From contig JASBSU010000048.1 of the NCBI GenBank assembly GCA_030148725.1, forward strand, positions 1 to 54,306: a stretch of DNA of 54,306 bases. The letters are read 5' to 3'. Under the pieces are notes generated by a model. That model did no database searches, was not told where the DNA came from, and was given only the letters and a program-made list of their open reading frames with translations. A program made the translations under genes and the position numbers. The first letter of the stretch is position 1, and each line of letters starts with the position of its first letter. Below, in pieces: positions 2,006-27,671 of the stretch. Origin of the DNA: Hyphomicrobium sp. Lineage in GTDB: Bacteria > Pseudomonadota > Alphaproteobacteria > Rhizobiales > Hyphomicrobiaceae.

Positions 2006-2359
2006 ATGGCAACCTTCGATAAGCTACCCTCGGGCCGTTGGCGAGCGCAGGTCCGTCGCAAGGGTCAAACGGCCTCGCGCAGCTTCCGGCTGAAGTCGGA
2101 CGCCGATGCCTGGGCCAGGGAGGCCGAGGACCAGATTGGGCGTGGCAAGAGCATCGATGCCGTGCACGTCGATGCGACTACGACGTTCGCGGAAATCATC
2201 GACTTGCATATCCGAGACTTGGCCGAGGTCGGCAAGGCGCTGCTGACCGGGCTCACGCGGGAGCGGATCATCGCCGGGCCCGAAGCGGACTTGGGTGCAG
2301 ACCTTGAGCCCGTGCGCCGGCCGATCAGCGATTCACTCAGCGTCGAGGTGTTGAACTAG
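2006..2359 (+). pseudogene. Tyrosine recombinase (dusA-island type) remnant, N-terminal domain only
   Basis: The first ~75 residues from the ATG at 2006 (opening MATFDKLPSGRWRAQVRRKG) are the arm-type DNA-binding domain of phage/island tyrosine recombinases. After the stretch IIDLHIRDLAEVGK the usual core-binding domain is missing. A short LTRERII piece follows and then unrelated sequence, so there appears to be an internal deletion followed by loss of frame. The catalytic domain (R-H-R-Y) is absent, and 117 residues remain of the expected ~350. An upstream in-frame ATG at 1997 is possible. The fragment is divergent from dusA and 136 bp from its start, the position of integrases of dusA-integrating islands. 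It converges on the ABC ATPase gene and shares a CTAG with its stop. It is almost certainly non-functional. Confidence 0.75.
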
Positions 2360-3198
2360 CCGACGTTCTGAATACCGAGCGGCTCGAGCCGCGGCAGCGC
2401 GTTGCTCTCGTTGCGCGTGTGCAGCAACGACAGACAGCGGCGCTTCAATTCGCCGAACTCAGGCGTAATCGAGACTTCAGCGCTTCGCGGTCGTGCGAAC
2501 GGCACCTTCAGCTCCTCGATGATCCGGCCGGGCCGTTGGCTCATAACGAGCACGCGATCCGCGAGAAAAAGCGCCTCGTCGATGTCGTGCGTGACGAAAA
2601 CGATCGTCGTGCGCACCTTCGACCAAATATCGAGCAGCAACTCTTGCATATTCATGCGTGTCAGTGCGTCGAGCGCCCCGAAGGGCTCGTCCATCAGCAG
2701 CAAGCGCGGCTTGTTCACGAGCACTCGAGCGATCTCGACGCGCTGCTGCATGCCCCCGGATAGCTGCTTGGGGTACCGATGCAAAAAATCCTGCAGTCCC
2801 ACGAGATTCAGAATGCCCTCCGCCTGCTCTTTCCTCAGATTGCGCTTCACGCCGCGCATCTTCGGACCAAAGGTCACATTGGAGAGAATGCTCTTCCACG
2901 GAAAGAGCGTGTGGTGCTGAAAAACTATGCCGCGCTCGGGATGGGGACCCTGCACCGGCTCGCCGTCCACGTTCAGTTCGCCGCCGGCCACGCCGATGTG
3001 TCCGGCAAGCGCGCCCAGCAGCGTTGACTTACCGCAACCCGATGGACCGATGAGGCAAACGAACTCCCCCGGCTCGACCGACAACGTTAGATCTTTGACG
3101 GCTTCGAAGGCCGTGTCGCCACGGCCAAGTCTCACGGACACTTTGCGCGCATCTATTCGGCCCGTATCGGAAAGCGACATTCTTTCGCGCCCGCTCAT
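2356..3198 (-). CDS. NitT/TauT-family ABC transporter, ATP-binding protein (system 1)
   Basis: This 280-residue ATPase energises an importer of the nitrate/sulfonate/taurine class. It shows a Walker A (GPSGCGKST, residues 51-59), Q-loop VFQHHTLFPW, signature LSGGMQQR, Walker B LLLMDEP and switch histidine (FVTHD). I chose the ATG at 3198 because it overlaps the permease stop by 4 bp (ATGA); the longer frame to 3396 runs back through permease coding sequence. A second in-frame Met at 3180 is possible. It is the last gene of a unit with the permease and substrate-binding protein, and probably of the larger AprA-like operon. The substrate is unknown. Confidence 0.93.
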   Translation of the reverse strand: MSGRERMSLSDTGRIDARKVSVRLGRGDTAFEAVKDLTLSVEPGEFVCLIGPSGCGKSTLLGALAGHIGVAGGELNVDGEPVQGPHPERGIVFQHHTLFPWKSILSNVTFGPKMRGVKRNLRKEQAEGILNLVGLQDFLHRYPKQLSGGMQQRVEIARVLVNKPRLLLMDEPFGALDALTRMNMQELLLDIWSKVRTTIVFVTHDIDEALFLADRVLVMSQRPGRIIEELKVPFARPRSAEVSITPEFGELKRRCLSLLHTRNESNALPRLEPLGIQNVG

Positions 3199-4028
3199 CG
3201 TCCGTCCTCGCTGTGCCAGGGAGTGAGCCAGCGACCGATCTGGCGCAGCAAAAAGCTCGAGCCCATCCCTAGAATGCCTATTGCGACCATGCCCACGACG
3301 ATGTCGGCATAGCGCTGAATGACGTAGGACTCCCAGGTGTAGTAGCCGATGCCGTATTGTCCCGAGATCATCTCGGCAGTCACGAGGCAGAACCACGATG
3401 TGCCCATGCCGATCGCGAGCCCGGTGACGATCGCGGGAGCCGCCCCTGGCAGAATTACTTCGCGAAGGATTGCTGCGCGCGTACCTCCGAGGCTCTTGGC
3501 CGACGCGATTAGGCGTGGATCGACATGCTCGACCCCATGAATGGTCGAAAGCAAGATTGGAAACAAAGCACCGATGAAGGTGATGTAGATCATCGACCCT
3601 TCGGACGATGGAAACATCAGAACCGCGAGCGGAATCCAGGCGACGGCCGGAATGGGACGCAACAACTCGAGCGGCGGCAACAGCACGTCACCGATGCGCC
3701 GTGACCTTCCGATCGCAAGCCCCAATAAGATGCCGAGAACAGCGGCGATGGCAAACCCAACGGCTACCCGGCGAAGACTGCTGGTGACATGGCTCAGCGT
3801 CTTCGACGATTGCGCGAGATCGACGGCTGCCGCAGCGACCTCGGTCGGGGGAGGAACGTTGGCGAAGGTAATGAGCCCGAGATTCGCATGATAGGTCGAC
3901 GCCGTCTGCCACGCGAGGAGGCAGACGGCGATCGATGCGGCTCTCAAGATCCAGCGGCTCACGCCGGCGTCATGATTGGCTCGCAAGGCTCCGACCTCAA
4001 TTGGATGCCAGGACGGCTGCGCGCGCAC
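3195..4028 (-). CDS. NitT/TauT-family ABC transporter, permease (system 1)
   Basis: This inner-membrane permease has about six transmembrane segments and the BPD_transp_1 coupling loop near the C-terminal half (EHVDPRLIASAKSLGGT, then LPGAAPAIVTGL). It belongs with SsuC/TauC/NrtB proteins. The GTG at 4028 gives 277 residues and a 32-bp overlap with the upstream substrate-binding protein. A second GTG at 3962 would avoid the overlap and still keep the whole membrane domain, so the start is uncertain. Its stop overlaps the ATPase start (ATGA), indicating translational coupling. Confidence 0.92.
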   Translation of the reverse strand: MRAQPSWHPIEVGALRANHDAGVSRWILRAASIAVCLLAWQTASTYHANLGLITFANVPPPTEVAAAAVDLAQSSKTLSHVTSSLRRVAVGFAIAAVLGILLGLAIGRSRRIGDVLLPPLELLRPIPAVAWIPLAVLMFPSSEGSMIYITFIGALFPILLSTIHGVEHVDPRLIASAKSLGGTRAAILREVILPGAAPAIVTGLAIGMGTSWFCLVTAEMISGQYGIGYYTWESYVIQRYADIVVGMVAIGILGMGSSFLLRQIGRWLTPWHSEDGR

Positions 4029-5406
4029 CCGGCAAGTCCAGCACCTTGCCGCCGTTGGCCTTGGCCCAAGCCTCGGCCTGATCGTTCAGCAGGAAGGCGT
4101 TGATCTGCCCATCGTCACTACGAACGAACCAGGCCTGCGCGCCGAGAAGCTTGATGCCGCTGTTGTGGTCCTGCGCGTAGAAGGCACGCGAAACCTTCCC
4201 CTCGGTGTCGAGTGTCTTCAAGGCCTTCAGCGCAGCCTCGACGGAAGCGTAGTGGCGAACTTTGTCTTCGCCCTTCACCCATATCTGGGAGACGCGCTTC
4301 GGATCCTTGATATCCTGGCCCGAGCCAGCATCTTTGGCGACGAGTGTAAGCTGGTCGTAGTTCTTCAGTGCAGCATCATAGTCGAGGCCCGAGGCCTTGA
4401 AGGCGGCCTTGATATATTTGTCGTCCACGAAGGTATCGACGTCGAGGCCCTGATCGGCTTTCTTCAAAAGCTTGAGCGTATCGATGGCCGTTCCAACAGC
4501 CTGGCGCCATTCGGGCTTCCAGGTGAGATCGCGCGTCTGTAGGCCGAGCGGACCGTGGAACAGGTAGTCGACCTCGGCTTCGATCCCCGACACCTTCTCG
4601 ATCAGCTCGCTGTACTTCTCGGGGTCTTCACGGAACAGCTTGTCCGCTTCGATGACGGCCTGGAGATAGGCCGTGACGACCTCAGGGTATTTCTCTGCGT
4701 AGGCTTTATCCACCAGCACGCCGTGGAACGTAGGTCCGTTTGCCTGCGAGCCGTCGTAGATCTTCCGCGCAAAGCCGCGCCATGGGAAGAGCTCGGCGAA
4801 GGGCACGAAGTCGGCATGCGCCTCGATCTGGTTTGAGCGCAGCGCCGTGCCGGCCACCTCGGGCGCCTGTGTGATGATCGTCACGTCCTTCTCGGGATCC
4901 CAGCCCTGGGCCTTGACGGCGCGCAGCAGCAGGCCATGCGCGGTAGAGGCAAATGGAACCGAGATCGTCTTGCCCTTGAGGTCGGCGAGTGACTGTACCT
5001 GGGAAATCGACGGTACGACGATGCCATTGCCCGAGCCTTTCACGCTCCCCGAGACGGGGGCGATGAAGATGCTCTTGCGGCCGGCTTTTTCGTGCGCGAC
5101 GCCGTTAAACGAACCAGGGAAGTCCGCCATGATACCGAAGTCGAGCTTACCGGCGATCTGGTCGTTGGTGATCGGCGCGCCGCTCGTGAAGTTCTTCCAC
5201 TCGATCTCGTAGGTCGCATCCTTGTACTTACCGTCTTTCGGCAGGTACTTGTCGAGCAGCTTCAGCTCGCGCACGAGCAGGCCGGCCGTTGCGGTATTGA
5301 TGGTCGTGTCCTGCGTGCCGATGGCGACGCGGATCGTCTCGGCTTGCGCCAGCGAGAATGCACTCGCCGCGAACACGCTGCCGACAAGCAATGATTTGAT
5401 GCGCAT
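3997..5406 (-). CDS. ABC transporter substrate-binding protein (system 1), unusually long
   Basis: This is an exported periplasmic binding protein of the NMT1/SsuA-like fold. A Sec signal peptide (MRIKSLLVGSVFAASAFSLAQA) is followed by the mature start ETIRVAIG. Typical family elements are SLADLKGKTISVPFAS and a second lobe around residues 230-300. At 469 residues it is 130-150 longer than ordinary SsuA/TauA proteins and closer to NrtA/CmpA length, with a helical C-terminal extension. The start is fixed by a strong AGGAGGG ribosome site before the ATG at 5406; a longer frame to 5514 lacks a signal peptide. The ligand is unknown. Its genetic link to an AprA-like flavoprotein operon makes an inorganic or organic sulfur compound plausible. 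Confidence 0.9.
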   Translation of the reverse strand: MRIKSLLVGSVFAASAFSLAQAETIRVAIGTQDTTINTATAGLLVRELKLLDKYLPKDGKYKDATYEIEWKNFTSGAPITNDQIAGKLDFGIMADFPGSFNGVAHEKAGRKSIFIAPVSGSVKGSGNGIVVPSISQVQSLADLKGKTISVPFASTAHGLLLRAVKAQGWDPEKDVTIITQAPEVAGTALRSNQIEAHADFVPFAELFPWRGFARKIYDGSQANGPTFHGVLVDKAYAEKYPEVVTAYLQAVIEADKLFREDPEKYSELIEKVSGIEAEVDYLFHGPLGLQTRDLTWKPEWRQAVGTAIDTLKLLKKADQGLDVDTFVDDKYIKAAFKASGLDYDAALKNYDQLTLVAKDAGSGQDIKDPKRVSQIWVKGEDKVRHYASVEAALKALKTLDTEGKVSRAFYAQDHNSGIKLLGAQAWFVRSDDGQINAFLLNDQAEAWAKANGGKVLDLPGARAAVLASN

Positions 5407-5547
5407 GGTCCCTCCTGAATCGGGTCTGGCTCTCCGGAGCAGCATGCGTTCGCAACGCGCCCGGATCTGCACCCCTGAGGAGGATGTCGGTTGCCCTAAC
5501 CATCTAGCAACCAAGTTATTCTGAGCTTCTTATGAGCAAAAACCGCT

Positions 5548-5559
5548 GCAATTAATTGC
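5548..5559. promoter_or_regulatory. Palindrome GCAATTAATTGC upstream of the substrate-binding protein
   Basis: A perfect 12-bp palindrome lies in the 174-bp gap between the Crp/Fnr gene and the substrate-binding protein gene, about 145 bp before the latter's ATG. An identical palindrome lies upstream of the DUF971 gene at 9759-9770. Repetition ahead of both transcription units makes it a good operator candidate, perhaps for the Crp/Fnr protein encoded between them (inference). Confidence 0.6.
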
Positions 5560-5580
5560 TCGACGCTCATTTGCAGGCGT

Positions 5581-6420
5581 TTAGCACTCTGACCGCAGTG
5601 TATCCGGCTGGACGATGACGATGCGGTCGTCGGAAATTTTTATGATGCCACGCCGCTGGTAGCGCGCAAGAGTCGCCGTCACCCATTGGCGCGTCGACCC
5701 GATGATGCCGGCGAGCTGCTCGTGCGTGATCTTGCGATCGATGCGACGGCTAGCGCCATCGGTGTCCGAGAGAATAAGCAGAAGCTGTGCGAGCCGCGCA
5801 GTGACGGAGCGTGTGCCAAGCATTTGAGCGAGCGCCGAGTAGAACTTGCCTTTGGCGACCAGCGCATCGATGAGCGCTAGAGCAAACGCGGGAATGGTTT
5901 CGGCAAGGTGGCGGACGGCGGAGCCAGGAAGGTGCGCGAGCCGTGTCGTATCCACTGTTACGGCAGACCACATGTGCGTGCCGCGGCCAAAAACTTCAGG
6001 ACCGCCGACGAAGTGCCCCGGCGTCCAGTAGGCGAGGGTTAGCTCCTTGCCGGACGGGCCGACATAGTACGTGCGCACGCGTCCCTCTTCGATGAGGAAG
6101 ATGCCGTTGTGACTAGCTCCTTGCACAAAGACGTCCTCCCCAGGACCGGCGGTGAACACGCGCGAGGCGAGGCGCACGGCCGCCAAGTCGCTGGCCGACA
6201 GCCGATCGAGCATGCCGCGCTGGCCTTGCTCGAGATCGAGCTCGCTCAAGTAGATTGCCGATTGAAGCTTCTCTCGCGGCAGCACCAACGCCGACGTGGC
6301 CCCACCCATCACACCCTCGCTGCTTGACCCTGAACGCAGCAGCCTAGCGATGCGGATCGGACCACCAACGAAGAAATAGCGATAAGTAAAGTCCGGCGAG
6401 CACTGGCTCGGCTGCTTCAT
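5581..6420 (-). CDS. Crp/Fnr-family transcriptional regulator
   Basis: This 279-residue cytosolic regulator has an N-terminal extension of ~55 residues, a cNMP-binding-like beta barrel (residues ~75-165, with IEEGRVRTYYV and GKELTLAYWTPG) and a C-terminal winged helix (THEQLAGIIGSTRQWVTATL). The only cysteines are near the two termini, so it cannot hold an FNR-type 4Fe-4S cluster; the effector is unknown. The ATG at 6420 overlaps the HEAT-gene stop by 4 bp (ATGA) and is preferred over the ATG at 6444. Its position inside the AprA-like operon suggests it controls that operon, possibly through the shared GCAATTAATTGC palindrome. Confidence 0.88.
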   Translation of the reverse strand: MKQPSQCSPDFTYRYFFVGGPIRIARLLRSGSSSEGVMGGATSALVLPREKLQSAIYLSELDLEQGQRGMLDRLSASDLAAVRLASRVFTAGPGEDVFVQGASHNGIFLIEEGRVRTYYVGPSGKELTLAYWTPGHFVGGPEVFGRGTHMWSAVTVDTTRLAHLPGSAVRHLAETIPAFALALIDALVAKGKFYSALAQMLGTRSVTARLAQLLLILSDTDGASRRIDRKITHEQLAGIIGSTRQWVTATLARYQRRGIIKISDDRIVIVQPDTLRSEC

Positions 6421-7373
6421 TCCGTCAGTCGTGACAATGCCCAACGCGCGGTCTTGCGCACATCCGGATCAGGATCATTAAGAGCCGGTTCAAGGAAAGG
6501 TACAACGCTGGCGTCACCGATCTCACCAAGAGCAGTAGCGGATTCCTTGCGCAGGTTCGCCTCTGCGTGGTCCAGCTGCGAGGCGATTTTGCGCAAGCTC
6601 GCCCGAACCTTCAGGCGGCCCAGACCGCGCGTGGCCTTCAGGCGGACTTGCCAGTATTCATCATCGAGCGCAGCAATGAGCGCCGCGCCCACCGCGGGTT
6701 GCTCCGATAGGAACGAGGCCGCTTCTGCGGCTGCCTCGCGCACGCTCCAGTCAGCGTCCGACAGCCGCTGGAGCACTGTCGCGACGACCGCCTCGTCGCG
6801 CACAAAGGTCAATGCTCCCACCGAAGCGCGGCGGACGCGCGGCTCGGCATCCGCGGCCGCGGCAATGAGCGCGGCTAACGAGGTCCTGTCCTTGAGATAG
6901 CCCACGGTACCGACTGCCTCGACGCGCACGTCTGGATCCTTGTCGGCAAGCGCTGCCAATGCCGGCTTCAGCGACGCCTCGTTGCGCAGCTCTCGCAGCG
7001 CCCGCAGCGCTGATGCGCGCACGAACGGGCGCTCGTGACTGACGAGCGGCAGCAGCGGAGCTGCAGCGTCGACGTCCTTCAGCTCTGCTGCACTGTCGGC
7101 AGCAGCTGCTGCCACCCCCGAATCAACGTCAAGCAGGGCGATGGCCAGAGCCGATGCCGCCTCCAGGCCATCGAACTCGCCAAGCGCTACCGCCGCTTGC
7201 CGGCGCACGCCTGCGTCAGGGTCGGCCATCGCCGCAGCGAGCAGCCTGACCGCGCCCGGATCGCCGCTGTCGGCCAGCTCGAGGATCGCGACGCGCCGTT
7301 CCCCGGCGTCGCCCTCGGCCAAGCGTTGCGCGACATCGTCAAGATCGGTGTAGCGCTCGAACAGGTCGACCAT
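6417..7373 (-). CDS. HEAT-repeat protein of the AprA-like operon
   Basis: This 318-residue protein is built almost entirely of HEAT (PBS-lyase-type) helical repeats of about 31 residues, roughly nine of them, with the recurring pattern D-P-D-x-x-V-R-x-x-A-x-x-A-L-G. It has no signal peptide or membrane segment, so it should be a cytosolic scaffold. HEAT proteins of this kind act as assembly factors or docking surfaces, for instance in cofactor attachment and in complexes of Fe-S redox enzymes. The gene lies 10 bp after the ferredoxin gene and overlaps the Crp/Fnr gene by 4 bp, so co-expression is very likely. The exact partner is not visible from sequence; the adjacent flavoprotein/ferredoxin pair is the obvious guess. 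Confidence 0.88.
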   Translation of the reverse strand: MVDLFERYTDLDDVAQRLAEGDAGERRVAILELADSGDPGAVRLLAAAMADPDAGVRRQAAVALGEFDGLEAASALAIALLDVDSGVAAAAADSAAELKDVDAAAPLLPLVSHERPFVRASALRALRELRNEASLKPALAALADKDPDVRVEAVGTVGYLKDRTSLAALIAAAADAEPRVRRASVGALTFVRDEAVVATVLQRLSDADWSVREAAAEAASFLSEQPAVGAALIAALDDEYWQVRLKATRGLGRLKVRASLRKIASQLDHAEANLRKESATALGEIGDASVVPFLEPALNDPDPDVRKTARWALSRLTE

Positions 7374-7383
7374 GATGGATTGA

Positions 7384-7617
7384 TCACTTCAGGAGGTAGG
7401 GAATGTTGACGGTAACGGCTCCGGTCGGGCAATCCGCGGCGCACGGCATGCAATACCAGCACTCATCGTATGCCATGTAGGCCTTGCCGGTCTGCTCGCT
7501 GATGCGCAACACGTCGAGCGGGCACACGTCCACACATACCGTGCAGCCTTTGTCGGCGATGCATTTTTCGTTATCGACGATGACCGGAACGCTCGTTGAT
7601 GTATTCGCTAATGGCAT
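7384..7617 (-). CDS. Two-cluster 4Fe-4S ferredoxin, AprB-like
   Basis: This 77-residue protein has eight cysteines in two ferredoxin motifs: C19, C25, C28, C32 and C53, C56, C59, C63. The first motif has the long spacing C-x5-C-x2-C-x3-C, and the second is preceded by aromatic residues (DECWYC). That layout and the ending CPTGAVTV resemble the ferredoxin domain of AprB, the beta subunit of APS reductase, although AprB's C-terminal tail is absent. It should pass electrons to or from the FAD of the neighbouring AprA-like protein in the cytoplasm. I chose the ATG at 7617, 13 bp after the flavoprotein stop; an extension to 7650 would overlap that gene. Confidence 0.87.
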   Translation of the reverse strand: MPLANTSTSVPVIVDNEKCIADKGCTVCVDVCPLDVLRISEQTGKAYMAYDECWYCMPCAADCPTGAVTVNIPYLLK

Positions 7618-7630
7618 TGCTTGTCCCAGT

Positions 7631-9370
7631 TCAGACCGCCGCGCGCGCACCGACGCGCTGCTTGTCGTAAAGCTTCTTCTCGTCGTCGGCGATGGGAACG
7701 ACGTAGGGAGCGATGGCGCGCTTCTCGCTGGTCATGCGCCCGGCACGCTTGGAAAGCAGCGTATGGCAGAACCAGTCATTGTCGTTCTTTTCCGGGAAGT
7801 CCGTCCGCAGGTGATAGAGACCCCAACGGCTCTCGGCGCGATACAGCGAGGCGTGGGCTGCCATGTCCGCGCAATCTAGGATCGAGCTGGCCTCGAGTGC
7901 GCGCAGCAGCTCGTGAGCGTTACGTGCGATCATGGTGCGTTCCATGTCCTCACGCACCTCGGCGAACCTCTGCTGTGCCAGCTCGTATTTGCGTGCGACT
8001 TTCGGCGGTTGCAGGTAGTCGTTGACCAGCCGCCGCGTCTTGTACTCGATCTGGTTAGGCGGAATGCCGTCGTCGCGCCTTGTCGGCGCAAGAACACGCT
8101 CGCGCTCGCGCTCGACGTCGCCTCGATCGAACGCGGCCAGCTCATAACCGCTCGCGAACTCGGCGGCGTCCTTCCCGGCGACCGAGCCGTTGGTGAATGC
8201 CCCCAGCATGTAGTTGTGCGGGACGCTCGCCATGTCGCCGGCAGCATAAAGGCCGGGGATTGTCGTTCGGGCGTACTCGTCGACGAAGACTCCCGACGCA
8301 CTATGACCGCTGCAGAATCCGATCTCGGAAATGTGCATCTCGATCATCTGCCGCCGATAATCCGTGTGACGCCCGGCGTGAAACGCGCTGCGGCTCGGGC
8401 GCTCGACCCTATGCAGAATGTCCTCGATTTCGCCAACCGTATCCGCGTGCAGATGGTCGAGCTTAAGGAACACGGGGCCGTTGCCGGACTGAAGCTCGTT
8501 ATAGAACTCCAGCATCATCTGGCCCGACCAGTAGTCGCATTCGATGAAGCGCTGGCCCTTGTTGTTGGCGGTATAAGCTCCGAAGGGACCCGCGACGTAG
8601 GCGCACGCGGGGCCGTTGTAGTCCTTGATCAGCGGATTGATCTGGAAGCATTCGAGGTTCGCGAGCGCGGCGCCAGCATGATACGCCATCGCATAGCCGT
8701 CGCCTGAGTTCGCTGCATTCTCGTAGGTGCCGAACATATAGCCGGACGTCGGCAGCCCAAGCCTGCCCGCCGCGCCCATGCACAGGACGACGGCCTTGGC
8801 ACGAACGACCAGCAGCTCTCCCGATCTGGTGTTCACGGCGATCGCTCCGGCGATCCGGCCATCTCCAACCAGCAGACGCGTCGCCATGAAGCGATTGGAA
8901 ATCAGCAGGCGCGCCCGCCGGAGCTGACGGTAGAGCGCCTTCTTGACCGTCTCTCCGTTCGGCATCGGCAGCACGTAAGTGCCGATGTGGTGCACTTTCT
9001 TGACCGCAAAGTCGCCGTTCGCCGTCTTCTGGAACCGGATACCGTAGCTGTCGAGCTCCTCGATGATCGAGTAGCAGGTCTGGGCGTATTTCAGCACCGG
9101 CTTCTGGTCGACGATGCCGTCGTTGGCGATCGTGATTTCCTTGGTGTACTGCTCCGGAGTTGCATACCCCGGCACGACGGCGTTGTTGAGCCCATCCATG
9201 CCCATGGAGATGGCGCCCGAGCGCTTCACATTCGCCTTTTCGAGCAGGATCACTGTCGACTTTGGATTTGCGAGCTTGGCTTTGAGCGCGGCCATCGGAC
9301 CGGCTGTACCGCCACCGATGACCAGCACGTCACAACTGACCTCGGTCTGGTTGTCGAGAATATCGTCCAT
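7631..9370 (-). CDS. AprA-like FAD oxidoreductase (fumarate reductase/APS reductase superfamily)
   Basis: The 579-residue flavoprotein has an FAD Rossmann motif (VLVIGGGTAGP, residues 15-25), LLEKANVKRSGA, and a C-terminal FAD site with PGLYAAGDM (372-380). The C-terminal part, with ESRWGLYHLRTDFPEKND near 513, follows AprA (the APS reductase alpha subunit) rather than fumarate reductase, as does the adjacent AprB-like ferredoxin. A histidine equivalent to the AprA active site is kept in GHSASG (355-360). The segment around NPLIKDYNG (245-253) lacks the arginines that, from memory of Archaeoglobus AprA, contact APS. I therefore expect a related redox reaction on a different, perhaps sulfur-containing, substrate. 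The start at 9370 avoids overlap with the DUF971 gene. Genuine APS reductase is the main alternative. Confidence 0.85.
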   Translation of the reverse strand: MDDILDNQTEVSCDVLVIGGGTAGPMAALKAKLANPKSTVILLEKANVKRSGAISMGMDGLNNAVVPGYATPEQYTKEITIANDGIVDQKPVLKYAQTCYSIIEELDSYGIRFQKTANGDFAVKKVHHIGTYVLPMPNGETVKKALYRQLRRARLLISNRFMATRLLVGDGRIAGAIAVNTRSGELLVVRAKAVVLCMGAAGRLGLPTSGYMFGTYENAANSGDGYAMAYHAGAALANLECFQINPLIKDYNGPACAYVAGPFGAYTANNKGQRFIECDYWSGQMMLEFYNELQSGNGPVFLKLDHLHADTVGEIEDILHRVERPSRSAFHAGRHTDYRRQMIEMHISEIGFCSGHSASGVFVDEYARTTIPGLYAAGDMASVPHNYMLGAFTNGSVAGKDAAEFASGYELAAFDRGDVERERERVLAPTRRDDGIPPNQIEYKTRRLVNDYLQPPKVARKYELAQQRFAEVREDMERTMIARNAHELLRALEASSILDCADMAAHASLYRAESRWGLYHLRTDFPEKNDNDWFCHTLLSKRAGRMTSEKRAIAPYVVPIADDEKKLYDKQRVGARAAV

Positions 9371-9378
9371 GCAGGCTT

Positions 9379-9702
9379 TCAGATTACCTCGTCGGCATCG
9401 GATGCGATGAAGTCCGCCATCTGCGGCCGCATGCAAAGCTCGAGCAGCATCGGCCATGGAAAGACGCCGCCATGCGCGTCATGAGAAAACGCGACGTGCA
9501 GCCCATAACCGACGTCGGCGAGCCCCGTGACCGCCAGACCGGCGGGATGCGGGGCAGCGCCATCGAGGCGGCGCCGCTTGGCTTTTGCTCCCGGGCATGC
9601 ATCCCAAAGCGTTTCGGCGGCAATGGTGCGCTTTCGCCCGTCAGCCAGCGAGATGGTCGCGGCTCTGCCTCCGGGCGTGAGATGGATCGTTGGCTTGGTC
9701 AT
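9379..9702 (-). CDS. DUF971-domain protein
   Basis: This 107-residue protein carries a single DUF971 domain, the fold found at the N-terminus of gamma-butyrobetaine hydroxylase and fused to some Mrp/ApbC Fe-S carriers. Recognisable are the opening ...LADGRKRTIAAETL, a central GYGLHVAFSHDAHGGVFPW and a C-terminal helix. Stand-alone members have been associated with Fe-S or metal handling, but no reaction is established. It is the first gene of the AprA-like operon, ending 8 bp before the flavoprotein start, so a role in maturing that enzyme is a reasonable guess. The ATG at 9702 is preferred because upstream residues to 9762 do not resemble the family. Confidence 0.8.
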   Translation of the reverse strand: MTKPTIHLTPGGRAATISLADGRKRTIAAETLWDACPGAKAKRRRLDGAAPHPAGLAVTGLADVGYGLHVAFSHDAHGGVFPWPMLLELCMRPQMADFIASDADEVI

Positions 9703-9758: not shown

Positions 9759-9770
9759 GCAATTAATTGC
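9759..9770. promoter_or_regulatory. Palindrome GCAATTAATTGC upstream of the DUF971/AprA-like operon
   Basis: This perfect 12-bp palindrome is identical to 5548-5559. It is centred about 62 bp upstream of the DUF971 ATG, a typical position for Crp/Fnr-class or repressor sites. The 9703-9905 gap also serves the divergent metallophosphoesterase gene. Confidence 0.6.
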
Positions 9771-9905
9771 AGCGCGATAGCGCAACGGCTCATGCGTGAC
9801 GTAGCTAGCTGAAATCACAAAAAGCGCGAAGCAAATCACGATCTAATATTTGCCCGGGGCTTGGCGAGTCGGCACATCAGGTGCGAGTTGCACCCTGGGG
9901 ACATC

Positions 9906-11078
9906 ATGAGCCTGCAATCCGCCGACGCCGTTGACGCGGCCGAAACCTTTCATTTGTGGGTCTTTTCCGACGCTCACGTTGCCACTGACCGTGCAGTATC
10001 AGCCGCGATCCGCAACGGCATGGGGTTCATTCCGCCCGCCGGATATCCCGAGAGCCTCGCGAATGCGCTACGCCATTCAGAGGAGGGTGGAGAACTGGGT
10101 GGACCAGCGTTCCGTTGGGATATCGCGCTCGACCTCGGCGACAATGCTGGTCTTTGGGATCTTCCGAACGACGAGCAGGGCAGAGAGGTGGTGCGCCAGC
10201 TCGGCGTTCTGAAGCAGCACGGGCGGGAGCATATCTATCCGATTGCCGGCAATCATGATGCCTCGCCCGGAGATGCGGCGTCGAGCCTCGGCAAGCCCGC
10301 AAACTGGTGGTTCCGCAAATGGGTCGATCCGGTCGGCGAGCACCCGGAAACGTCCGGCGTCGAGCCGGCGCGCCGCCCCTATCCGATAGAAGGCACGTGG
10401 GAGCGATACGTCTTCAAGGTCGGCAACATCCGCTTCCTTATGATGAGCGACCGCAACGACCTGCCGTATCCAGTTGGCAGGCAGGAATCGGGCGGGGGAT
10501 CGCCGGCAGGTGCGGTGACCGGCGAGACATGGGAATGGTGGCAGCGGCAGGTCGAGGAAGCGCGCGAAAGCAACGAGATCGTCGTCAGCGCGCATCACCA
10601 CATGCTGCGCGAGACAACCGTGGCGTCAGGCGATTACGAGGGCGTTTCACGCTATCCGGACGGCCGCTACCGGCATGGGCGGTATCACGGTGTCGACGGC
10701 GTGCCGGAAGGCGCATCATACCTCTATTTCGTAGACGATGAGCCCAAGGCGCAGCGTTTCGAGCGCTACCTCGCTGAAAACCCCGGTGCGGTCGACATCT
10801 GGCTTGGCGGTCACACGCACACCTATCCGGACGACATCGTAAGCGGCCGCAGCCATATCGAGCGCAAGTGGGGAACGAGCTTCGTCAATTGCGCGCAACT
10901 CTCAAAGTACCATTCATTCGTCACCTGCCCGCCGATGAGCCGGCATTTCACCTTCACCGCTGGGTCACCGCTCGTGCGCGTCCGGTGCTACCTGCACGAC
11001 GACAGTTATGCACAACAAGGCTGGTACGCGCCGGCAGAACGCGTGCTCGAGCTTGGAAAGCCATTCAAACCGGCGTGA
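9906..11078 (+). CDS. Calcineurin-like metallophosphoesterase
   Basis: The 390-residue protein has all five metallophosphoesterase metal-site motifs in order: D-x-H (SDAH, residues 21-24), GDN (LGDN), GNHD, a histidine cluster (SAHHHM) and GHTH. The family hydrolyses phosphomono- or phosphodiesters with a dinuclear metal centre. No signal peptide or membrane segment is evident, so a cytosolic enzyme is likely. I chose the ATG at 9906, after a GGGGA element, over the ATG at 9861. It is followed on the same strand by an ABC importer and is divergent from the AprA-like operon. The substrate is unknown; a nucleotide-like or organic phosphate/sulfate ester imported by the neighbouring transporter is possible. 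Confidence 0.85.
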   Translation: MSLQSADAVDAAETFHLWVFSDAHVATDRAVSAAIRNGMGFIPPAGYPESLANALRHSEEGGELGGPAFRWDIALDLGDNAGLWDLPNDEQGREVVRQLGVLKQHGREHIYPIAGNHDASPGDAASSLGKPANWWFRKWVDPVGEHPETSGVEPARRPYPIEGTWERYVFKVGNIRFLMMSDRNDLPYPVGRQESGGGSPAGAVTGETWEWWQRQVEEARESNEIVVSAHHHMLRETTVASGDYEGVSRYPDGRYRHGRYHGVDGVPEGASYLYFVDDEPKAQRFERYLAENPGAVDIWLGGHTHTYPDDIVSGRSHIERKWGTSFVNCAQLSKYHSFVTCPPMSRHFTFTAGSPLVRVRCYLHDDSYAQQGWYAPAERVLELGKPFKPA

Positions 11079-11228
11079 GCGCAATTCGAGTTCGCTATGT
11101 TAGGCATCACTCGTACACCAACGCAGCGCTTAGCGAGCGGGCTGCAATGGTTCCCACGATTTCTTCGTTCACGTGCTGGTTAACCGATCGTAGTGATCAG
11201 ATGATCAACTTCGACGGCGGGCACACCA

Positions 11229-12110
11229 GTGGCGCGAGGCACTTCGCCAAATACGTTTCGCGCGGCACAGCGACCCGCAGGCACGCCGCTCGGTCATGCA
11301 CCTCATCTGCACGTGGTCGGGGCTGAAGCCAGATCGCAAGCCGAGTCGGCGCCCCGCCTGCATCTCGACAACGTCACGGTACGCTTCAGTTCGCGTGCCG
11401 TCCCGGCAGTCGAGGATATTTCTCTCTCCATAGGCCGCGGAGAGTTCGTCGCGCTCCTCGGCCCGAGCGGCTGCGGAAAGTCGACGCTGCTCAACGTCTT
11501 GGCCGGCTTCTGCTCGCCCACACAGGGACACGTGCACCTCGACGGGGAGCCGCTGACGGCGCCGTCGGCAAAGTGCGGCGTCGTTTTTCAGAAGCACTCG
11601 CTTTTTCCCTGGATGACGGCGCTTGACAATGTTGCGTTCGGACCGCGGCGGCTCGGCATGCCCGATCCCCGGCGCATCGCCCAGGAACTGCTCGATACCG
11701 TCGGGCTCGGCCATGTCGCCAACTCGTGGCCGTCGAGCCTTTCCGGCGGGATGCAGCAACGCGTAGGCATTGCGCGGGCGCTGGCGACGCGACCACCGGT
11801 TCTGTTGATGGACGAGCCGTTCGGCGCGCTCGACGCGCAGACGCGTTCGCTGATGCAGGAAGAGCTGCTGTCGATCTGGGACAAGCTGCGCCCGACGGTC
11901 GTCTTCGTTACGCATGACATCGAGGAAGCGATCTTCCTTGCCGATCGCGTGGTCGTCATGCAGGCATTCCCCGGCAGGATTGCGCAGGAGTTCGCAATTC
12001 CTTTCATGCGTCCGCGCTCGGCCGAGATTATGGACAGTGCGAAGTTCATCGAGAGTCGGCGCGAGATCGCCGACATCATTCGCATCGAGGCACGGAAATC
12101 ATTCCGATGA
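11229..12110 (+). CDS. NitT/TauT-family ABC transporter, ATP-binding protein (system 2)
   Basis: This 293-residue ATPase has Walker A (GPSGCGKST), Q-loop VFQKHSLFPW, signature LSGGMQQR, Walker B LLMDEP and switch FVTHD, and belongs with SsuB/TauB/NrtD proteins. The listed start is a GTG at 11229. The first ~40 residues are not family-like, and a GTG at 11313 is a shorter alternative without a good ribosome site, so the start is uncertain. It overlaps the permease start by 4 bp (ATGA) and forms a transport unit with the next two genes. Confidence 0.92.
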   Translation: MARGTSPNTFRAAQRPAGTPLGHAPHLHVVGAEARSQAESAPRLHLDNVTVRFSSRAVPAVEDISLSIGRGEFVALLGPSGCGKSTLLNVLAGFCSPTQGHVHLDGEPLTAPSAKCGVVFQKHSLFPWMTALDNVAFGPRRLGMPDPRRIAQELLDTVGLGHVANSWPSSLSGGMQQRVGIARALATRPPVLLMDEPFGALDAQTRSLMQEELLSIWDKLRPTVVFVTHDIEEAIFLADRVVVMQAFPGRIAQEFAIPFMRPRSAEIMDSAKFIESRREIADIIRIEARKSFR

Positions 12111-12889
12111 GGGGCGTATTGCGCCAGTATGCATCGACGGGATCTGCGCTGTTACTCGGGACGGCCGGTCTGACGATCTTCACCGGCGTCTGGGCCTTGG
12201 CCGCGGCCAATCTCAACAACGAGGTCCTGCTGCCCTCACCGCTGTCGGTCGTCTATACCTACGCCGAGCTGCTCACCGACGGCTCGCTTCTAGGCGATGT
12301 GCGTGCCAGCATCGTCCGCGTCTTCGCCGGCTTCTTCATAGCATCCAGCATCGCGGTGCCGCTGGCCTTGATCCTCGCTTACTCGCGCGTCCTGCGCGGT
12401 CTCGTGATGCCACTGATCGCCCTCATACGGCCGATTCCGCCTATCGCGTGGATCCCGCTTGCCATCCTCTGGATGGGCCTCGGCGATCCGCCGAGCTACT
12501 TCATCACCTCGATCGCAGCGTTCTTCCCGATCTTCCTCAACTCTTTCGCGGGTGGCACGTCGCTGCAGCAGGAGCACGTCAACGCCGCGCGCTCGCTCGG
12601 CGCGGGGCCCGTGGCGTTGCTCGGAACGGTGATGCTGCCTTCGGCGCTGCCGATGATCGTCACCGGCCTGCGCATCGGACTTGGACAAGCGTGGATGGCT
12701 GTGGTTACGGCCGAGCTCATCGCTGCCCAATCGGGCCTCGGCTACATGATCCAGATCAGTCGCCTCAGCCTCGAGACTTCTCGCGTTCTCGTCGGCATGA
12801 CGGTCATCGGCCTTCTCGGCGCGGTGATGATCGGCGCCCTCGGCGTCCTTGAACGGCGCGTCATCGTGCCTTGGAACAACCCACGCTAA
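12107..12889 (+). CDS. NitT/TauT-family ABC transporter, permease (system 2)
   Basis: This 260-residue inner-membrane permease has six predicted membrane segments and the permease coupling loop (QQEHVNAARSLGAG ... LPSALPMIVTGL). RPIPPIAWIPLAILWMGLG is the usual family segment in the middle. It is translationally coupled to the ATPase by a 4-bp overlap and is followed 17 bp later by the substrate-binding protein. The order ATPase-permease-binding protein is the reverse of system 1, so the two clusters are not simple local duplicates. Confidence 0.93.
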   Translation: MRGVLRQYASTGSALLLGTAGLTIFTGVWALAAANLNNEVLLPSPLSVVYTYAELLTDGSLLGDVRASIVRVFAGFFIASSIAVPLALILAYSRVLRGLVMPLIALIRPIPPIAWIPLAILWMGLGDPPSYFITSIAAFFPIFLNSFAGGTSLQQEHVNAARSLGAGPVALLGTVMLPSALPMIVTGLRIGLGQAWMAVVTAELIAAQSGLGYMIQISRLSLETSRVLVGMTVIGLLGAVMIGALGVLERRVIVPWNNPR

Positions 12890-12906
12890 CAAAGGAAAAA
12901 CTGAAA

Positions 12907-13854
12907 ATGTCACGACTACGCGTATTCGCTTTGCGTGCCGCTATAGCGGGTGTCTTCGGTGTGCTGGCATTCGGTGCGGCGAAGGCTGAGGATACGAAGA
13001 TCCGCATCGGCTACCCGTCCGGCATGAACGGTCAGGTGCCGGTCGTTCTGGAGAAGGCGGGCATTGCGCCCAAGCATCAGCTGGCTGCCGAGTTCACCGG
13101 CTTCCAGTATGGCCCGCCGATGATGGAGGGACTCGTCTCCGGCCAGCTCGACGCGGTCGTGACGAGCTTCCTGCCGCCGCTCAACCTATCTGCAAAAGCT
13201 CCCGGAACGATCAAGTTCGTGGCGACACTGGGTCAGTCGAGCCACTCGCTGCTGGTGCCCAAGGACAGCCCGGCAAAGACGCTGACGGATCTCAAGGGAA
13301 AGAAGATCGGTGTATCGGTGGGTTCTGAATCGCATCTCGATCTGATCCTATCTCTGAAGAAGGCCAATATCGATCCGAAGACAGATGTCGAACTCGTAAA
13401 CCTGCAGCCGAACGAACTTCCAGCCGCGTTGGAGAAGGGGCTCGTCGACTCAGCGCTGATCCGTCAGCCGCAGGTGCTGCGCCTCGAGGAGAGCCTCGGC
13501 GCCAAGAAGATCGAGACCTGGCCATTCCGCTTCACCTCAATCGTGCGCACGGAGTATCTCAACGCCAATCCGGACGCCGTGAAGCGCTATGTCGAGGCGC
13601 TGAAGGACGCAGTATTGTACATCGCCACCAATCCCGACCAGTCGGCGACCTGGTTCGCCGAGGCGCAGCGGCTCAATCCTGAGGTCGTGAAGAAGCTCGC
13701 AGACGAGAACCCGCTATACGCGGCCAAGGCGCGCGAGGACATCAAGATCGAGATCGACGAAAACTTTAAGACGCTGCTTGCCGAACGCCTCCAGGCCGCT
13801 ATCGACAACGGCCTCGTGAAGGCGAAGGTCGATCCGTCGACCCTCACGCAGTAA
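12907..13854 (+). CDS. ABC transporter substrate-binding protein (system 2), SsuA/TauA-like
   Basis: This 315-residue periplasmic binding protein has a Sec signal peptide ending AAKA|EDTKIRIGY. Family features are SLL VPKDSP and TLTDLKGKKIGVSVGS followed by a second lobe. I chose the ATG at 12907, which has AAAGGA upstream and begins the signal peptide, over the ATG at 12871 that lies inside the permease gene. Ordinary length for SsuA/TauA-type proteins, in contrast to the long system 1 protein. Ligand unknown. Confidence 0.91.
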   Translation: MSRLRVFALRAAIAGVFGVLAFGAAKAEDTKIRIGYPSGMNGQVPVVLEKAGIAPKHQLAAEFTGFQYGPPMMEGLVSGQLDAVVTSFLPPLNLSAKAPGTIKFVATLGQSSHSLLVPKDSPAKTLTDLKGKKIGVSVGSESHLDLILSLKKANIDPKTDVELVNLQPNELPAALEKGLVDSALIRQPQVLRLEESLGAKKIETWPFRFTSIVRTEYLNANPDAVKRYVEALKDAVLYIATNPDQSATWFAEAQRLNPEVVKKLADENPLYAAKAREDIKIEIDENFKTLLAERLQAAIDNGLVKAKVDPSTLTQ

Positions 13855-13898: not shown

Positions 13899-16289
13899 CT
13901 AATCCACGAAGGTGATGAACAGCGGCGACGTCCATACCTTCTCGTCGTCGATCTGCCGGCCATGAATGTAGACGGGCCGAAAGCCGCGAGGCCCGTTGCC
14001 CGGTTCGATCTCGATATCGCCCTCGACCTCCAACGGCAACGGCGCGTCGCTCAAGCGCTCCAGCGCAAGAAACAGCCCTTCACCTCCGAGGTCGCGGCGA
14101 AGCTGTCCGGCGCTCAGAAGCTGTGCTCCCGTGACGTCCCAGTGAAAGAGCGGGTGATGTGAAAACGGGGTTTGGGCAAGCGCATCGCCGACTTTCTGAT
14201 ATTCGCCGATGGTGCCTTCGACGCTGATCGCGGTGTCGGGCAGGCCACTGACGTCCAGCTCGATGGTATCAGCATCCCCATAAGTCTCGGAGTTAAACAC
14301 GACCTCGGTAGCACCGCGGCGCCAGGCGGCCTCCTCGCGGTGCTCGAAGCCGTACGTCGTAACGGAATGAATGACGCCGTTGGTGATCCTGAGTATCCCC
14401 GACCACTTCGCCGCTCGGTAGCGATCTCTGATGCGCGCGCCGCCCCAACGCAGCCGGATGCGGCGAGTGCTGTAGCCAGCTTCTGCTTGCATGTTGCGTT
14501 CCCAGATAATGCCTGAGTGGTCATACGCGGCGAGATAGTCCCAAGCCGCATTGCCGAGCAGTCGGTAGCGGAGCCGGATCGGCCCCCGCGTCGTAAGCTC
14601 ATCTCCCTGGATCGCCCGGTCGGTTGAAAGCAGGCCGACAATGCGCTCGCCCGTGGTTGCCCATGTGTGGCGGGCGCGCAGAGCCCGTGCAATGTCCGAT
14701 CGCGTCAATGCATGTGCGATCACGCCGGTGAGGCCGCCGCGAACGCCGAATACCTGCGCGCCGGGCGCGCCGCCGCCGCATCGGCCGCGATGCTCATCGC
14801 CCGCCGCCGAGGCGCCGAGCTTATAACCGCGGGCGATGGCCTCCTGGTAGAACCAGCCGAAGTGTCCCCATATCGAGCCGATCTCGATAAGCCGTTCGAG
14901 CGCTGGATCATGCCAATCGAGGTTGGCGCGCCTGCCGCCGACATGCGGGATGAGGAGATGGCCTTCAGGGTCGTGGCCGTAGAGCTCCCAAAGATCATTC
15001 AGCGGCCATATGCCCGGCTCGATGGTGCTGCCTTGCATCTGCGCATTCCACTCGAATGATCGCGCCGAGCGTCCGTTCCGGTCGAAGGGAAACTCCGGGA
15101 TGCGGCCGTGCAGGAAGACGACGTTATGGTCGCCCCCCGCACAGGAGTTTCCGCACCATTCGGTACCGGGGAAAGCGACGAAGGCGCCGTCCTTATGCAG
15201 CCCGTGGATCAGGTCCACCGACTGTTGCCAGTTAGCCTCCGTGATGTTGAAGTCATTGGCGGTGTAACCCAACACATCCAGCCCGGCGACGTCACGGGCA
15301 TACGTGAGATTGTATTCGGTGCTGTTGATGCCGACCGTGTCATCGGAGTGGACGTGCAGGTCGGCAAACCACGCGCGCGGCTCGTTGATAGCAGGATCTA
15401 CCCTGATCAATGCCCGTGCAGGGGAGACCCGAGGCAAATTGGGAATGTGTGCGGTGATTGCAATCTCGCCGTCTGCATGGCCCGTGTCGAGATCGCGCTG
15501 GATCACGGCCCAGCCGAGTTCGGGAAAGGCAATGGCTTCACGGCGCTCGCCATCGGCTGAGGTGAAGCTAAGGACGATGCTATGTCCGAGTGCCGAGCAA
15601 ACGTTCCCCCAGACGTCGAACGCCCGGACGCGGACCGGCACCGTCTGTCCTGTGCGGGCAAGCCGCGGTGCGGCAATCGACAGCACTGCTGGCGCTCCAG
15701 CGACGAAGGAGATCTTCACATCTCCCGGCACTGCCGCGAACTTTGAAGTCCCGAGGGGATCGACGAACGCCCGGAACGTGAAGGCCTTCTCTTCGAACGT
15801 TTGTACGCGGGTTCCGGGTCCGCCGGCACGCCGATCGCCGAGCCGGACGGTAATGCGATCGCCTGGGTTGAGGTAGCCGTCGACGATGTCGATGAGCAGC
15901 GCCTTCTGAAAGGGCCGCTCGTGCCCCTTCTGGTCGAAGGCGATCTTCAGCGCCTGTACGGTTGCCGGGCTCTGACCCTCGACGAGGGCACCCGCCGCAT
16001 ACTCTGCCGAGACAAAGTTTGCAGCCTTAGGATCGCTGGTCTGGAACAGCGCCCAGTCGGTGGAGAACTTAAACGCAATCTTCAGACGCGCGCCATCGGC
16101 AATGCCGCTCGCACCGACAATGTAGTCGAGGATGATCTCATCCCACGTGCCGGCAACGAGCTGGTCGTGCGAGCAACTGAGCTTGCCGAGGAAGGGGAGC
16201 GCCTCAACTCGCCGCTGCAGGGTGCGCGGGAAGACTTGTGCGCTCGCTGCAGGGCTGTTGCCTTGGCTCCAAGCTGAGTTGTCGTGCAT
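13899..16289 (-). CDS. DUF3604 protein (PHP-like metal-dependent hydrolase)
   Basis: This 796-residue protein has an N-terminal beta-rich region (~1-320, with Ig-like segments such as RTGQTVPVRVRAFDVWGNV). A PHP/DUF3604-type domain follows: ADLHVHSDD as metal ligands, then FPGTEWCGN, DHNVVFL and a PHVGGR loop. DUF3604 proteins are widespread, poorly characterised members of the PHP metallohydrolase superfamily; PHP enzymes cleave phosphoesters. No signal peptide is evident. It converges on ABC system 2 and shares the neighbourhood with a metallophosphoesterase, suggesting degradation of an imported ester. Opposite orientation means it has its own promoter in the 578-bp gap to its right. Confidence 0.85.
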   Translation of the reverse strand: MHDNSAWSQGNSPAASAQVFPRTLQRRVEALPFLGKLSCSHDQLVAGTWDEIILDYIVGASGIADGARLKIAFKFSTDWALFQTSDPKAANFVSAEYAAGALVEGQSPATVQALKIAFDQKGHERPFQKALLIDIVDGYLNPGDRITVRLGDRRAGGPGTRVQTFEEKAFTFRAFVDPLGTSKFAAVPGDVKISFVAGAPAVLSIAAPRLARTGQTVPVRVRAFDVWGNVCSALGHSIVLSFTSADGERREAIAFPELGWAVIQRDLDTGHADGEIAITAHIPNLPRVSPARALIRVDPAINEPRAWFADLHVHSDDTVGINSTEYNLTYARDVAGLDVLGYTANDFNITEANWQQSVDLIHGLHKDGAFVAFPGTEWCGNSCAGGDHNVVFLHGRIPEFPFDRNGRSARSFEWNAQMQGSTIEPGIWPLNDLWELYGHDPEGHLLIPHVGGRRANLDWHDPALERLIEIGSIWGHFGWFYQEAIARGYKLGASAAGDEHRGRCGGGAPGAQVFGVRGGLTGVIAHALTRSDIARALRARHTWATTGERIVGLLSTDRAIQGDELTTRGPIRLRYRLLGNAAWDYLAAYDHSGIIWERNMQAEAGYSTRRIRLRWGGARIRDRYRAAKWSGILRITNGVIHSVTTYGFEHREEAAWRRGATEVVFNSETYGDADTIELDVSGLPDTAISVEGTIGEYQKVGDALAQTPFSHHPLFHWDVTGAQLLSAGQLRRDLGGEGLFLALERLSDAPLPLEVEGDIEIEPGNGPRGFRPVYIHGRQIDDEKVWTSPLFITFVD

Positions 16290-27413: not shown

Positions 27414-27671
27414 ATGCTCACGGCAACGGACTACTGGATCAGCTGGTCGATCATAGGAGCCCTTTCGGGCGTCCTGTCTTACCTTGGGCGGCGGCCGCTT
27501 GCGGATGCGCTGTTCACCCGCATGTTTGACGGCATTCTCGGGGCGTGCGTCGGCGGAGAGATCGTCCGGCGATGGGATGCGACGCAGGCCGTCGCTGCCA
27601 CAGGATTGCTTGGTGCCGCGTTTGGCAGCGTCCTCTTCCTCTACGTCTTAAATCGAATGCGGCCCGCCTAG
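27414..27671 (+). CDS. Small integral membrane protein (GlsB/YeaQ/YmgE-like)
   Basis: This 85-residue protein has three predicted membrane segments with glycine-rich packing (SIIGALSGVLSYLG; GILGACVGGEI; GLLGAAFGSVLFLYVL). That resembles the transglycosylase-associated GlsB/YeaQ family, though the match is only general. I chose the ATG at 27414; upstream residues to 27333 are not hydrophobic and look non-coding. Its TAG stop shares a CTAG with the convergent FAD protein. Role unknown, possibly envelope stress. Confidence 0.6.
   Translation: MLTATDYWISWSIIGALSGVLSYLGRRPLADALFTRMFDGILGACVGGEIVRRWDATQAVAATGLLGAAFGSVLFLYVLNRMRPA

Follow-up and report, generated by a model that had tools for sequence, protein, structure and literature searches.

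What does a relative of the dissimilatory adenosine 5'-phosphosulfate (APS) reductase AprBA do when it is encoded beside its own importer and regulator? This question is raised by eight adjacent genes in a 54,306-nucleotide stretch of Hyphomicrobium sp. DNA (contig JASBSU010000048.1; the whole stretch is called the window), which the original prediction had taken for an undescribed system that imports a sulfur compound and oxidises or reduces it with an AprBA-like enzyme. Our answer is a dedicated two-operon sulfur-acquisition regulon in which sulfite would be released reductively from an imported sulfonate-like compound, a reading that we consider about evenly poised between right and wrong. 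The link to sulfur is moderately supported, and the substrate, the reaction and its direction are what we infer from the evidence below.

A conserved eight-gene module

All eight genes were confirmed on the minus strand between positions 2356 and 9702. Domain scans of their products returned, in gene order, GBBH-like_N/DUF971, FAD_binding_2 with Succ_DH_flav_C, 4Fe-4S, HEAT and Crp/Fnr domains, followed by an NMT1-type binding protein, a permease and an ATPase; coordinates and domains thus agree with the order and common strand first described. The features are:

9379..9702, minus strand: DUF971/GBBH-like_N small protein (Pfam PF06155, 29.6 bits, cut-off 22.8)
7631..9370, minus strand: AprA-like flavin adenine dinucleotide (FAD) protein (NF006131/PRK08275), predicted catalytic subunit (NF006131 score, Foldseek, tree)
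7384..7617, minus strand: AprB-like 2x[4Fe-4S] ferredoxin, predicted electron-transfer subunit (Fer4 families, CWxC)
6417..7373, minus strand: HEAT-repeat protein, putative scaffold (PF13646, 4e-46)
5581..6309, minus strand: Crp/Fnr-type regulator, reading frame open to 6444 (PF13545 and PF00027)
3997..5406, minus strand: binding protein with SsuA/TauA-like domain and C-terminal NosL-like domain (AlphaFold2/Foldseek, Pfam)
3195..4028, minus strand: ATP-binding cassette (ABC) permease, NitT/TauT type (PF00528, 6.8e-21)
2356..3198, minus strand: ABC ATPase (PF00005, 6.8e-34)
9759..9770, no strand: candidate operator GCAATTAATTGC, 5' of the DUF971 gene and also 5' of a divergent gene at 9903 (palindrome search)
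5548..5559, no strand: second copy of candidate operator GCAATTAATTGC, between the regulator and binding-protein genes (palindrome search)

Gap lengths depend on the start codons chosen in the analysis. With these starts, 8 bp separate the DUF971 and flavoprotein genes, 13 bp the flavoprotein and ferredoxin genes (ferredoxin ATG at 7617) and 10 bp the ferredoxin and HEAT genes. The regulator gene begins 107 bp after the HEAT gene if the ATG at 6309 is used and overlaps it if the TTG at 6444 is used; a 174 bp gap precedes the binding-protein gene, and the downstream junctions overlap by 32 and 4 bp. The predicted spacing, with most genes within 17 bp of each other and one gap of 174 bp, is correct on these starts.

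To survey relatives, genome contigs were scanned with the flavoprotein. At least 594 relatives were found and the best 80 kept; counts are drawn from the 63 of these with loci of 21.6 kb or more, without the 17 shorter ones, and because 29 of the 63 are Bradyrhizobium by genus label, they are not independent. Neighbours were counted by BLAST, with one or a few reference sequences for each, and DUF971 with a hidden Markov model (HMM) trained on its relatives. Within 6 kb of the flavoprotein gene, the ferredoxin and HEAT genes were present at every locus (63/63 each), the binding protein at 61, the permease at 60 and the ATPase at 59. DUF971 was found within the same distance at 60 of the 63 by HMM (31 by BLAST alone), and a Crp or GntR regulator lay within 6 kb at 56 loci and within 10 kb at 61. 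The eight families are therefore one conserved unit, as had been proposed, and conservation in these 63 full-flank relatives excludes a chance arrangement. Overall, conservation of the module is well supported.

The module is also found in further proteobacteria and in cyanobacteria and actinobacteria. Plasmid records that carry it come from rhizobia, Acinetobacter, Acidithiobacillus, cyanobacteria and actinobacteria; outside the 63-locus set, such records include those of Acinetobacter, Cupriavidus, Acidithiobacillus, three cyanobacteria and Tsukamurella. Given these plasmid copies in diverse bacteria, the gene set is widespread and probably mobile. Its layout varies. The Acinetobacter plasmid run, a complete module on a 44 kb record of Acinetobacter baumannii (CM018764.1, locus L085), reads GntR (annotated as a UTRA-domain protein), flavoprotein, ferredoxin, binding protein, permease, ATPase, HEAT and DUF971; the Nostoc copy is rearranged; the Acidithiobacillus copy has its ATPase and permease genes about 6 kb away, and no DUF971 gene was found there; and the module on Mesorhizobium pMLa, where an IS110 element is present, has no adjoining importer genes. 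Directly 3' of the module on Acidithiobacillus pTcM1, a 1153-residue protein with a pyridine nucleotide-disulphide oxidoreductase domain is encoded (L084:10574-14035). The operon variant of marine alphaproteobacteria also encodes SCO1, PCuAC, cytochrome c and a Cys-Cys membrane protein that weakly matches MerT (L044:15610-18122, L050, L062, L070).

The flavoprotein resembles AprA but belongs to a separate family

The flavoprotein scored 1050.9 bits against NF006131 (cut-off 587). It stayed far under the cut-offs of the AprA model TIGR02061 (144.4 against 641.75 bits) and of TIGR01812, the succinate dehydrogenase/fumarate reductase flavoprotein (157.6 against 567.3 bits). By both sequence and Foldseek, the closest solved chains were 3'-phosphoadenosine 5'-phosphosulfate (PAPS) reductase 8a8o, which was the best fold match, and then APS reductase 1jnr. 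Flavoprotein phylogeny had been named beforehand as a check of kinship with AprA. Neither outcome that would have counted against the original prediction was observed: the flavoprotein did not fall inside AprA with sat elsewhere in the genome, and the eight genes did not prove to be separately conserved. In a midpoint-rooted tree of 41 sequences, in which PAPS reductase, SdhA and NadB form long branches, twelve AprA sequences and PAPS reductase grouped with support of 100/99 without any of the 26 flavoproteins. The grouping of these 26 is itself weak (57/84) because the cyanobacterial and actinobacterial sequences attach at an open fork.

Conserved positions point the same way. Where Archaeoglobus fulgidus AprA has Arg265, the alignment gives Leu in 26/26 flavoproteins and Arg in 12/12 AprA; a motif check found Leu in 98 of 99 relatives, the motif not matching the remaining sequence (L090). 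The equivalent of the AprA active-site residue His398 is kept, as His358 in all 26 flavoproteins and as the aligned His in all 12 AprA sequences. Arg265 and His398 are taken as catalytic in AprA; a literature search on their roles gave nothing usable. His358, Lys145, Lys251, Asp252 and His387 are common to all 38 sequences (26 flavoproteins and 12 AprA), and Cys243, Cys355, Trp283, His129 and Tyr134 occur in 26/26 flavoproteins and 0/12 AprA. The structural model of the flavoprotein has a predicted local distance difference test (pLDDT) score of 72, falling below 50 at residues 48-64, 202-224, 243-261 and 348-359; since these segments hold Leu249 and His358, we claim no active-site geometry. 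Judged by its sequence, the flavoprotein is not AprA, because it lies outside the clade of AprA and PAPS reductase, scores far under the AprA cut-off and has Leu for Arg265. It is AprA-like and forms a separate family, and scores, tree and alignment together bear out an enzyme that is AprBA-like, not AprBA.

Partner proteins of the flavoprotein

The CWxC motif of the ferredoxin aligns with CWEC of Desulfovibrio gigas AprB and is present in 98/98 relatives examined; the protein scored 36.6 bits against the AprB model TIGR02060, under its cut-off of 135.65. The Trp of this motif presumably occupies the position of Trp42 in PAPS reductase. Trp42 is proposed as an electron carrier in the part of the PAPS reductase report consulted (PMC10322725).

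The HEAT protein is fused to the flavoprotein in Tsukamurella, a fusion that corresponds to model NF010374, and probably acts as a scaffold. At three cyanobacterial loci an Mrp/NBP35 gene (by annotation; domains were checked in one) lies 3' of the HEAT gene, where the Acinetobacter copy has DUF971. This replacement suggests that the DUF971 protein may help in Fe-S maturation; alternatively, it might be a docking helper.

A predicted sulfonate-type importer

The AlphaFold2 model of the binding protein has a pLDDT of 88.6. Foldseek ranks 1-8 were all SsuA/TauA chains, from four distinct proteins, and nitrate, bicarbonate, thiamine-precursor and PQQ binders followed at lower ranks. A profile search at E 1e-6 gave four solved sequences, one TauA and three SsuA, of which one carries the deposited title of a nitrate transport protein. 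The binding protein scored 119.5 bits against TIGR01728 (cut-off 163.5) and 80.5 against TIGR01729 (cut-off 304.25), the permease fell under the cut-offs of the ntrB/TauC/SsuC models, and the ATPase reached 252 bits against the taurine ATPase model (cut-off 357). The modelled fold bears out the predicted sulfonate-type importer: it is probably of the SsuA/TauA kind, and its ligand would be a sulfonate-like compound.

The C-terminal part of the binding protein resembles NosL. A Pfam match covers residues 371-459 of a 471-residue version; for the window protein it is weak, with E 0.19 over the full sequence and 0.0089 when the C-terminal piece is taken by itself, and among 33 relatives it recurs in 26 at E up to 1, with a best value of 5.7e-7.

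The C-terminus of a cyanobacterial LysR regulator (L086:7688-9688) matches the NMT1_2 binding-protein family (3e-4), so this protein may contain a ligand-binding fold of the same kind. A second cyanobacterial LysR regulator, at L088:7388-9424, was identified by similarity alone.

A candidate operator shared by the two promoters

Both module promoter regions hold the perfect palindrome GCAATTAATTGC, which the original prediction had overlooked. It occurs twice in the window, against 0.04 expected, and these are its only two sites in the whole 3.84 Mb assembly. For relatives, we counted a degenerate form, GCAAYTAATTGC, at 91 loci with one mismatch allowed, taking as upstream the region from 450 bp ahead of a module reading-frame start to 200 bp past it; this form was picked after earlier matches had been seen, and related loci are not independent. 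Sites were present at 53/65 Crp-type loci, 0/18 GntR-type loci and 6/8 with neither regulator in view. Crp-type loci held 88 sites in 345 kb of upstream sequence versus 14 in 1003 kb elsewhere, and the upstream counts for four control palindromes in these loci were 0 or 1 each.

We regard the operator as well supported, and the palindrome shared by the module's two promoters is new. Since GCAAYTAATTGC accompanies Crp-type and not GntR-type loci, the regulator type appears tied to the module and the two operons are likely one regulon, with the Crp-type protein as the putative ligand of GCAATTAATTGC. Operator and regulator offer a direct handle on function, as an inducer of the two promoters would tell the system's purpose.

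The site at 9759-9770 may also serve the divergent metallophosphoesterase gene. Beyond that gene lie a second NitT-type importer and a DUF3604 protein (9903-13854 and 13899-16289 together with it). Next to its copy of the module, Hyphomicrobium facile (L056, 74-84% identity) likewise has the importer and DUF3604 genes, and Aquabacter (L063) the phosphoesterase and importer genes.

Sulfur genes in the window and the assembly

The window holds further sulfur genes that had not been reported with the module. An ssuABCD-like set lies about 20 kb from it, with ssuD (609 bits against TIGR03565, cut-off 518) and ssuC (362.5 bits, cut-off 347) over their cut-offs, and with ssuB- and ssuA-like genes. 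The window also encodes a LysR protein of the CysB/Cbl type, two sulfurtransferase-like proteins and a transporter resembling YeeE/TsuA; these and the ATPase are under the cut-offs of their best models. Among these genes, two similar-looking FAD/NAD(P)-binding-type proteins are encoded at 22181-23542 and 27668-29020, without an NCBIfam match at 1e-10. The annotation around the Nostoc copy of the module also lists an 'FAD/NAD(P)-binding protein'.

The assembly comprises 61 contigs and is 96% complete. It contains no Sat-type ATP sulfurylase (PF01747), which extends the earlier remark that the usual APS-pathway genes are missing from the window; aprM, qmo and dsr were not searched for. There was likewise no AprA match at E 1e-40. 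In a Pseudomonadota sample, 15 of 299 genomes (this one included) carry the flavoprotein family over its cut-off; aprA matches at E 1e-40 were found in 40 genomes, which include none of these 15. A gene with a sulfite reductase domain (C27:1-1245, locus L125) is cut by the end of its contig; by eye, it appears to be CysI, with CysJ and CysG as neighbours. No CysD/CysH-domain (PF01507) protein and no CysN over cut-off were found in the assembly, and given that the CysI gene is truncated at a contig end, the absence of CysD/CysH may reflect a gap.

Two kinds of neighbour in relatives bear on the reaction. A ferredoxin-NADP-reductase-like gene lies within 6 kb at 39/63 loci and FdxA at 18/63 (domains were checked in one example each). 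TauE/SafE and YeiH-type exporters adjoin the module on two cyanobacterial plasmids, and a YeiH-type gene lies within 10 kb at 27/63 loci. We take YeiH-type proteins to be linked to sulfite export.

A proposed reductive route to sulfite and its alternatives

How could these parts work together? In the proposed regulon, the SsuA/TauA-kind binding protein would capture a sulfonate-like (R-SO3-) compound for import by the ABC transporter. In the cytoplasm, the FAD flavoprotein and its 2x[4Fe-4S] ferredoxin, assembled with the HEAT and DUF971 proteins, would receive low-potential electrons, in many relatives from the neighbouring NADPH:ferredoxin-reductase-like protein and FdxA. The AprBA-like pair would then reductively release sulfite, which would pass to assimilatory sulfite reductase; in some relatives, any excess might leave through YeiH-type or TauE/SafE proteins. 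The Crp/Fnr-type protein would control both operons through GCAATTAATTGC. The adjoining exporters suggest sulfite as the product. Because a ferredoxin-NADP-reductase-like gene recurs, reduction is favoured, without proof, over the oxidation that had been left open. The compact Acinetobacter run implies that import and the AprBA-like pair should suffice to hand the product to central metabolism. Of the original prediction, the AprBA-like enzyme, the sulfonate-type importer and the single unit stand.

Several observations weigh against this proposal. With Leu at the Arg265 position in 26/26 flavoproteins, the N5-sulfite chemistry of AprA cannot simply be assumed. The importer proteins are under every sulfonate, taurine and nitrate cut-off listed (for the ATPase, among the best 25 of 187 families), and two loci (L061, L066) have no binding protein within 6 kb. 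Twelve of the 65 Crp-type loci lack the operator, 24 of 63 loci have no ferredoxin-NADP-reductase-like gene within 6 kb, and 22 of the 27 loci with a YeiH-type gene are Bradyrhizobium. Finally, PF01507 proteins are kept in all 14 other module-bearing survey genomes, which led us to reject the module as a general replacement for CysDH or for sulfate assimilation.

The enzyme might instead cleave a sulfo group bonded through S-S or N-S, as in thiosulfate, S-sulfocysteine or sulfamate, and not a carbon-sulfur bond. Such substrates offer the good leaving group that attack by reduced flavin would need, as in AprA chemistry, and the window encodes a YeeE/TsuA-like transporter and two sulfurtransferase-like proteins; the importer, however, is nearest to the SsuA/TauA kind, and we think this version unlikely. 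To a similar degree we doubt that the flavoenzyme acts on a carbon-carbon bond of an imported non-sulfur carboxylate, in the manner of FrdA/SdhA, with the sulfur neighbourhood incidental. It does belong to the FrdA/SdhA superfamily and shares Gln245, Pro248, Arg276 and His308 with the one SdhA aligned, and NMT1-type binding proteins have many ligands. Yet the nearest folds of the binding protein are sulfonate binders, the module has sulfur-related genes beside it here as well as in two cyanobacteria, and no carbon-catabolic gene is among the identified recurrent neighbours, many neighbour clusters being unidentified.

It is distinctly improbable that the enzyme is a genuine APS or PAPS reductase working in sulfate assimilation or sulfite oxidation. 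The closest solved relatives are such enzymes, and the missing CysD/CysH-domain protein, unless lost to a contig gap, would leave room for one; the low TIGR02061 score, the position outside the 100/99 clade, Leu where all 12 AprA and PAPS reductase have Arg, the absence of Sat and the sulfonate-kind binding protein at 61/63 loci all speak against it. Least credible is a role in handling copper or another metal, in which the NosL-like domain would be the carrier: despite that match in 26/33 binding proteins and the SCO1, PCuAC, cytochrome c and weak-MerT membrane proteins that join the marine operons, these four lie within 10 kb at only 7 or 8 of 63 loci, and no Cys, His or Met column reaches 40% across 38 NosL-like sequences, which makes a copper role unlikely.

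Returning to reductive sulfite release, a bolder extension is possible, although we lean against it: the module may encode a reductive desulfonase of a new class, independent of oxygen and driven by ferredoxin, with an AprBA frame in which Leu replaces the APS-site Arg. In part of its range it would be regulated by its own Crp/Fnr protein at a private operator, and it would be carried on plasmids and chromosomes in three phyla. If true, a further arm of the AprA superfamily would serve sulfur acquisition, a new route for soil and marine organosulfur.

Comparison with known systems

A literature search for a described function returned, in the library searched, nothing beyond PMC12375680 (2025). 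As far as the sections consulted go, no link to the flavoprotein appears in Rhodococcus IGTS8 proteomics (PMC8557817), Bradyrhizobium NasT targets (PMC6759348), an R. palustris model (PMC12844201) or A. caldus genomes (PMC3826726). Paraburkholderia phymatum Bphy_7232-37, an operon beside SoxCD that is described in part of PMC8305402 as an 'alkane sulfonate ABC transporter' under NifA dependence, was considered as a module copy and dropped, there being no P. phymatum among the flavoprotein matches listed even though pBPHY01 was in the collection.

The novelty originally claimed for the system has to be narrowed. The flavoprotein family is known as NF006131 (PRK08275), and NF010374 (PRK13800) is already its fusion with HEAT; both are named generically, as fumarate reductase/succinate dehydrogenase flavoprotein subunit, with no substrate, operon or operator. 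The portion of PMC12375680 consulted lists, for Acidithiobacillus caldus (F. caldus) plasmids, a 'ferredoxin/APS reductase/GntR' and a NitT/TauT sulfonate-transporter module, apparently the same genes as the pTcM1 copy, for which the authors predict organosulfonate uptake and assimilation. They write 'APS reductase', and that portion holds no family-wide survey, active-site comparison or operator.

The Methanothermococcus thermolithotrophicus PAPS reductase (8a8o) is the closest solved structure and, in the part of its report consulted (PMC10322725), also an assimilatory offshoot of the AprBA type; unlike the module's enzyme, it keeps the Arg265-equivalent Arg and groups with AprA. Dissimilatory AprBA shares with the module its fold, FAD, a 2x[4Fe-4S] partner with CWxC and the AprA-type His and Lys-Asp positions. 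The module differs in lacking an Arg265 equivalent, in forming a separate clade, in having its own importer and no Sat found, and in its short ferredoxin (76-77 residues, versus 150-166 for AprB chains).

SsuABCD and TauABCD have an importer of the same kind as the module and probably share its purpose. Their oxygenases depend on O2, and desulfonation for sulfur supply in aerobes is known chiefly from such enzymes (SsuD, TauD), whereas the module encodes an AprBA-like redox pair with a ferredoxin. Import and desulfonation for sulfur would thus be new here in enzyme, not in purpose.

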